From Streptomyces sp. NP160 (GTDB lineage Bacteria; Actinomycetota; Actinomycetes; Actinomycetales; Quadrisphaeraceae): a stretch of 64,000 bases of DNA. The stretch spans positions 156,627 to 220,626 of the forward strand of contig NZ_VDMJ01000015.1 of assembly GCF_006335115.1 (NCBI RefSeq), given 5' to 3'. Position numbers and translations under genes: made by a program. Below the pieces are notes generated by a model that saw nothing but the letters and a program-made list of their open reading frames with translations, did not search any database and was not told the origin of the DNA. Positions 49,116 to 49,266 of this stretch are shown here, piece after piece. The first letter of the stretch is position 1. The number at the start of each line of letters is the position of its first letter.

Positions 49116-49121
49116 TAGGGT
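49116..49121 (+). promoter_or_regulatory. Leaderless -10 box of the leuA leader peptide
   Basis: TAGGGT ends seven bases before ATG 49129, placing the transcription start on the leader peptide's first codon. Confidence 0.6.
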
Positions 49122-49128
49122 GGTCGCG

Positions 49129-49182
49129 ATGTTCGCGGTGAGCCTCCTCCTCGGCTGCCGCGACGAGGTCTCGCAGCCCTAG
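49129..49182 (+). CDS. leuA leader peptide (17 residues, three consecutive Leu)
   Basis: The peptide reads MFAVSLLLGCRDEVSQP. Three consecutive CTC codons (49144-49152) sit just before the left arm of an RNA stem (49158-49168). It is preceded by TAGGGT seven bases away. Slow decoding of Leu codons during leucine shortage would hold the ribosome over the left arm. The stop codon UAG lies inside the loop of that stem. The combination is the classic attenuation layout. Confidence 0.8.
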   Translation: MFAVSLLLGCRDEVSQP

Positions 49183-49247
49183 GTCGGCTCCCTCGTCGCG
49201 GAGTCCCGTCCTGCCGGCCGCCCCCACGGGGCTGCTCGTCGCAGCCC
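49158..49247 (+). promoter_or_regulatory. leuA attenuator with mutually exclusive stems and possible pseudoknot
   Basis: Stem I: CCGCGACGAGG (49158-49168) pairs perfectly with CCTCGTCGCGG (49191-49201). A second copy of CTCGTCGC (49235-49242) can replace the right arm by pairing with GCGACGAG (49160-49167). Stem II: GGGCTGC (49229-49235) pairs with GCAGCCC (49241-49247). The loop of stem I holds another GCAGCCC (49173-49179), which could also pair with GGGCTGC, making a pseudoknot. This resembles the LEU element described for actinobacterial leuA genes. The pairings are read directly; the regulation is inference. Confidence 0.7.
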
Positions 49248-49266
49248 GGACCCCAGGAGCACTGAC

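Follow-up and report, generated by a model that had tools for sequence, protein, structure and literature searches.

The LEU element was described in actinobacteria as a leader peptide, a pseudoknot and a base stem formed by the leader's Leu codons and the leuA Shine-Dalgarno (SD) sequence; Kineococcus radiotolerans was one of the genomes covered by that study (Seliverstov et al. 2005, PMC1262725). In S. lividans, RNA-seq showed the homologous leader MRFGLLLLSCRGEGL to be leaderless and without a terminator (PMC8079986). Mutations in the S. coelicolor leuA leader, as cited in PMC1262725, had some effect, but not the one that classical attenuation predicts, and this result is ambiguous. Leaderless poly-cysteine leaders of mycobacteria have been described, according to the citing paper, as translation attenuation (Canestrari 2020, cited in PMC13236596).

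We analyzed a 64,000-nucleotide stretch of the Streptomyces sp. NP160 genome (the window), in which leuA follows a short leader. This leader is an ordinary copy of the actinobacterial LEU element, known since 2005, and not a new switch; its leucine-rich peptide gene, knotted RNA fold and masked ribosome-binding site together probably turn leuA on at low leucine. The upstream neighbor encodes an Era-like GTPase with a KH domain and ends at 49097, and the leuA ATG at 49267 lies downstream of a 17-codon leader (ATG TTC GCG GTG AGC CTC CTC CTC GGC TGC CGC GAC GAG GTC TCG CAG CCC TAG). The features of the locus are as follows.

49116–49121, + strand: −10 promoter element TAGGGT, 7 nt ahead of the leader start codon (leaderless transcript), from the TANNNT spacing among relatives.
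49129–49182, + strand: leader ORF encoding the peptide MFAVSLLLGCRDEVSQP followed by a stop; homologous leaders (LLL..[CR]R[DG][EG]) precede leuA in more than 100 loci.
49144–49152, + strand: sensor codons CTC CTC CTC (three Leu), also the 5′ strand of the base stem; the minimum-energy fold pairs this run with AGGAG, and the own-versus-swapped duplex test covers 105 loci.
49158–49168, + strand: 5′ arm of stem I, CCGCGACGAGG, encoding C-R-D-E of the leader; 11 of 11 pairs formed.
49173–49179, + strand: GCAGCCC within the stem I loop, encoding Q-P, the pseudoknot arm of the sequence-only reading; invariant in the genus and also found in L007 and L008.
49182–49188, + strand: 5′ arm of the conserved pseudoknot, GGTCGGC, overlapping the last base of the leader stop codon; swap test and covariation.
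49191–49201, + strand: 3′ arm of stem I, CCTCGTCGCGG, with the same pair count as the 5′ arm.
49213–49219, + strand: 3′ arm of the conserved pseudoknot, GCCGGCC; swap test and covariation.
49229–49247, + strand: genus-specific hairpin GGGCTGC-TCGTC-GCAGCCC; its stem is invariant in six congeners and absent from other genera.
49235–49242, + strand: second CTCGTCGC, mostly hairpin loop and probably coincidental; missing in L003 and L004.
49255–49259, + strand: leuA SD sequence AGGAG, the 3′ strand of the base stem; minimum-energy fold and own-versus-swapped duplex test.
49267–51030, + strand: leuA, 2-isopropylmalate synthase, with Pfam domains HMGL-like, IPMS_D2 and LeuA_dimer.

These parts of the LEU element are present here: the leader peptide at 49129–49182 has homologs and lies upstream of leuA, the pseudoknot is formed by stem I together with GGTCGGC:GCCGGCC, and the base stem CTCCT:AGGAG appears in the minimum-energy fold. 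A covariance model trained on 67 sequences matches 231 of 247 Actinomycetes genomes (E ≤ 1e-4); leuA itself is present in 236 of the 247. Nearly every leuA locus compared (relatives plus 80 named genomes) has a small ORF in which a Leu run is followed by the motif [CR]R[DG][EG]. A previous sequence-only reading of this DNA had correctly recognized a leucine leader peptide before leuA, competing folds and kinship with the LEU element, and it had placed the ORF, the three CTC codons, the perfect stem of 11 bp and both repeats (8-mer and 7-mer) exactly. It had also considered the precise duplicated switch worth describing; the element itself is already known and widespread. The parts that evolution has kept are the leaderless start, stem I, the pseudoknot and the base stem, only some of which that reading had named. 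Searches with Rfam covariance models (T-box, riboswitches, Leu_leader) found nothing relevant in the window, and nothing in six relatives. The leuA copy was the only convincing LEU element found in the genome of the window; all other hits in it were weak, and the two inspected lie within long open frames and lack a LEU-type leader. No LEU element was found in the upstream regions (∼800 nt) of leuB and leuC in the window's family.

Of 105 distinct homologous leaders, 96 have a TANNNT motif 6–7 nt upstream of the start codon, compared to 0.8 expected from the background rate. This spacing bears out the leaderless start that had been proposed from the sequence; the −10 motif itself (TAGGGT, 49116–49121) had been overlooked.

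Stem I is conserved in the pairing of its bases, with 99.5% of cells paired among 36 distinct relatives and two-sided changes at two pairs. Stem I and the pseudoknot taken together have 99.3% of cells paired and four pairs with two-sided changes, and their covariation score exceeds that of all 500 shuffles. Both counts come from alignment A2; alignment A3 was left out because the pseudoknot stands one column off register in some Microbacterium rows, and a swap test was used in its place. In this test, the pairing between a species' own loop and downstream segment scored 15.7, compared to 13.6±0.24 when partners were exchanged between species, a margin of about nine standard deviations. The arms differ by genus while complementarity is kept (GGTCGGC:GCCGGCC, CACCGGC:GCCGGTG, AAGACC:GGTCTT, CAGGC:GCCTG, GACCGG:CCGGTC); support is uneven, since some Microbacteriaceae have just four unbroken pseudoknot pairs. 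In one neighboring genus (L020, L023 and L123) the 3′ arm lies ∼12 nt farther downstream and is still complementary, pairing CACCGGC or CATCGGC with GCCGGTG. An 11-nt inverted repeat arises by chance with P = 0.01 (2,000 dinucleotide shuffles of 49129–49266), and a chance origin of stem I and the pseudoknot is ruled out. The stability of the fold is unremarkable for its composition (z = −1.03), and folding energy alone is uninformative. The sequence-only reading was right that a pseudoknot extends from the loop of stem I, but the pair that covaries is 49182–49188 with 49213–49219, which it had overlooked, and not GCAGCCC at 49173 with GGGCTGC at 49229. Covariation, which it had proposed as a check, is present in stem I; its own pseudoknot shows no variation within the genus.

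The Leu-codon run and the SD sequence also behave as partners. Across 105 loci, the duplex between a locus' own Leu run and SD has an energy of −9.7 kcal/mol, compared to −8.43±0.20 kcal/mol for swapped partners, and none of 5,000 swaps equaled it; when swaps were confined within four clade groups, 1 of 5,000 was as good. Covariation also links the codon following the Leu run to the bases preceding the SD core (CGT:ACG, CGG:CCG, CGC:GCG, AGC:GCT). Thus, the pseudoknot and the Leu-run:SD pairing both covary across genera. Codon usage in the run is strongly biased relative to leuA at the same loci, with 164 CTT codons (5.9 expected, a 28-fold excess) and 46 CTG codons (221 expected, a five-fold deficit), which is what pairing with a purine-rich SD would demand, although use of one tRNA-Leu isoacceptor would be another way to explain the CTT bias. 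The window's clade has a short base stem (5 bp, with 2 more beyond a mismatch), and there the own pairing is no better than the swapped one (1,492 of 5,000) among sequences that are much alike. The complementarity of the run to AGGAG at 49255–49259 had not been noticed before in this DNA. Arthrobacter relatives have a weak base stem (−4.3 kcal/mol; 4,872 of 5,000 swaps equally good), which looks lost, and leuA control may be different there. These relatives (L030, L078, L089, L090, L094, L096, L097, L102 and L107) retain stem I and a short pseudoknot core.

No intrinsic terminator was found ahead of leuA, and a classical transcription attenuator is therefore not indicated. The lack of a terminator, combined with a covarying mask over the SD, makes translational attenuation the simplest reading, and we consider it likely that the LEU element acts in this way. 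From the observed layout of the parts, their conservation and their covariation, we infer that ribosomes stall, in which direction the response runs, and that control is translational rather than transcriptional. The leaderless mRNA would begin at the leader ATG. When leucine is plentiful, ribosomes would pass CTC-CTC-CTC and release at the stop codon. The RNA would then fold up, forming stem I, the GGTCGGC:GCCGGCC pseudoknot and a base stem that hides the leuA SD behind the Leu-codon run, permitting little leuA translation. When leucine is scarce, a ribosome would pause at the Leu codons and occupy them together with the beginning of stem I, six nucleotides farther on; the paused ribosome would block both the base stem and the pseudoknot, and leuA would be translated.

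Two other readings of the conserved structure have to be weighed against translational attenuation. The element may instead govern premature transcription end, for example by Rho, which would gain access to the RNA when the pseudoknot is closed and the leader downstream is empty. Rho-type control has been proposed for mycobacterial leader peptides without terminators (PMC1262725), and any transcriptional control here must be Rho-like because there is no intrinsic terminator; the covarying base stem over the SD, however, indicates translation, and we regard this alternative as unlikely. The authors of the 2005 study favored a pseudoknot that binds a protein or some other ligand, with the leader peptide secondary. 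A compact structure kept throughout a class would suit such binding, as would the ambiguous effect of the S. coelicolor leader mutations in the form in which they are cited. Yet the Leu codons, the leaderless start and the reading frame are also kept across the class, and before leuB and LeuA_dimer genes (described below) the sensor codons switch to Val/Ile mixtures while the structure stays constant, which fits codon sensing; ligand binding as the main mode of control therefore appears improbable.

The sequence-only reading had proposed a further mechanism, in which GGGCTGC (49229) pairs either with the stem I loop or within its own hairpin, and GCGACGAG (49160) has two copies of CTCGTCGC to choose from (49192 and 49235). 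All the complementarities behind these competing folds do exist in the sequence, including those of the two GCAGCCC copies (49173 and 49241); the calculated helix energies are comparable, and GGGCTGC and both GCAGCCC copies are invariant in six congeners despite a variable spacer. However, the second CTCGTCGC is broken without compensation in two of the six congeners (L003 and L004), the arrangement is missing from all other genera that keep the LEU element, and there is no covariation. At least one direct repeat of 8 nt arises in dinucleotide-shuffled sequence with P = 0.31 and one of 7 nt with P = 0.71 (2,000 shuffles, 49129–49266), so that duplicated 7–8-mers are by themselves unremarkable in such GC-rich DNA, and the duplication of CTCGTCGC is probably chance-like. 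That the duplicated modules make up the switch is not supported, and we consider it very improbable. The extra hairpin is a different matter: none of its 14 stem positions varies among six congeners, compared to 27 of 43 elsewhere in the spacer (p = 2e-5), and an invariant stem amid a variable spacer marks it as a real genus-level addition. The pairing of GCAGCCC at 49173 with GGGCTGC at 49229 is confined to the genus and never varies there, and two sister genera (L007 and L008) retain GCAGCCC without its partner. It is possible that the hairpin competes with the stem I loop for GGGCTGC.

In other genomes, second LEU elements precede leuC, leuB, stand-alone LeuA_dimer-type genes and second leuA genes. 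All 11 leuC-type loci examined belong to one Microbacteriaceae-like family (f19; L152, L153, L154, L239 and L241–L247), and Leu runs are retained wherever the leader was read. Six loci are of the leuB type (L151:200–290, L155:118–240, L163:100–210 and L248–L250), with ilvE next where the sequence was read further. Their leaders include MRHALILRCRGGA, MARQLVILSSRGEFR, MRKQLVVIACRGGAS and MLWTVRILRCRDEAR, and the four leaders read have the sensor codons LIL, LVIL, LVVI and RIL, with no pure Leu run, while structure and pseudoknot are retained. Between the leuB-type leader and leuB, L151:345–410 and L155:300–376 each contain a tiny ORF with the common motif ARQALQESMD.R.QG. The two LeuA_dimer-type loci (L161:189–700 and L165:143–740) have the leaders MSRMLVVRRRSGV and MSWQKLLVTRRSGV, with codons LVV and LLV, before stand-alone LeuA allosteric (LeuA_dimer) genes, of which that in L161 is above the Pfam cut-off and that in L165 merely similar. 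We somewhat favor the view that the LEU pseudoknot is a general actinobacterial chassis for translational attenuators, in which the sensor codons are exchangeable (Leu before leuA and leuC; Leu/Val/Ile before leuB-ilvE and LeuA_dimer), stem I, pseudoknot and leaderless start are conserved, and this genus has added a hairpin. A literature search, with subscription journals mostly uncovered, found no published LEU-like element at leuB, leuC or LeuA_dimer.

Taken by itself, the leader in the window is one more ordinary copy within a predicted regulatory family, and its value is that of a clean test case: the covarying parts are now named per base, and the question of 2005, whether a leader peptide, a protein or a terminator is responsible, is therefore open to direct test. 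With further copies ahead of leuC, leuB and LeuA_dimer genes, a single RNA design may serve several steps of branched-chain amino acid synthesis.

Compared to the LEU element as described (PMC1262725), the locus shares the position before leuA, the Leu-run leader, the pseudoknot and the base stem between Leu codons and SD, whereas this genus adds the GGGCTGC/GCAGCCC hairpin between pseudoknot and SD, and its Leu run is CTC three times over rather than a run ending in CTT. LeuL1 of S. lividans (PMC8079986) has the same leader motif (LLLLSCRGEG there), is likewise leaderless and lacks a terminator, but its Leu run is longer and its transcript start was measured, while ours is deduced. The mycobacterial poly-cysteine leaders, as represented in the citing paper, are also leaderless peptides with a run of regulatory codons, for cysteine instead of leucine. 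We know of no LEU pseudoknot in them. Classical trp/leu attenuators of the E. coli type similarly sense charged tRNA through a leader peptide; here, in contrast, there is no terminator or U-tract, and the Shine-Dalgarno sequence is masked instead.
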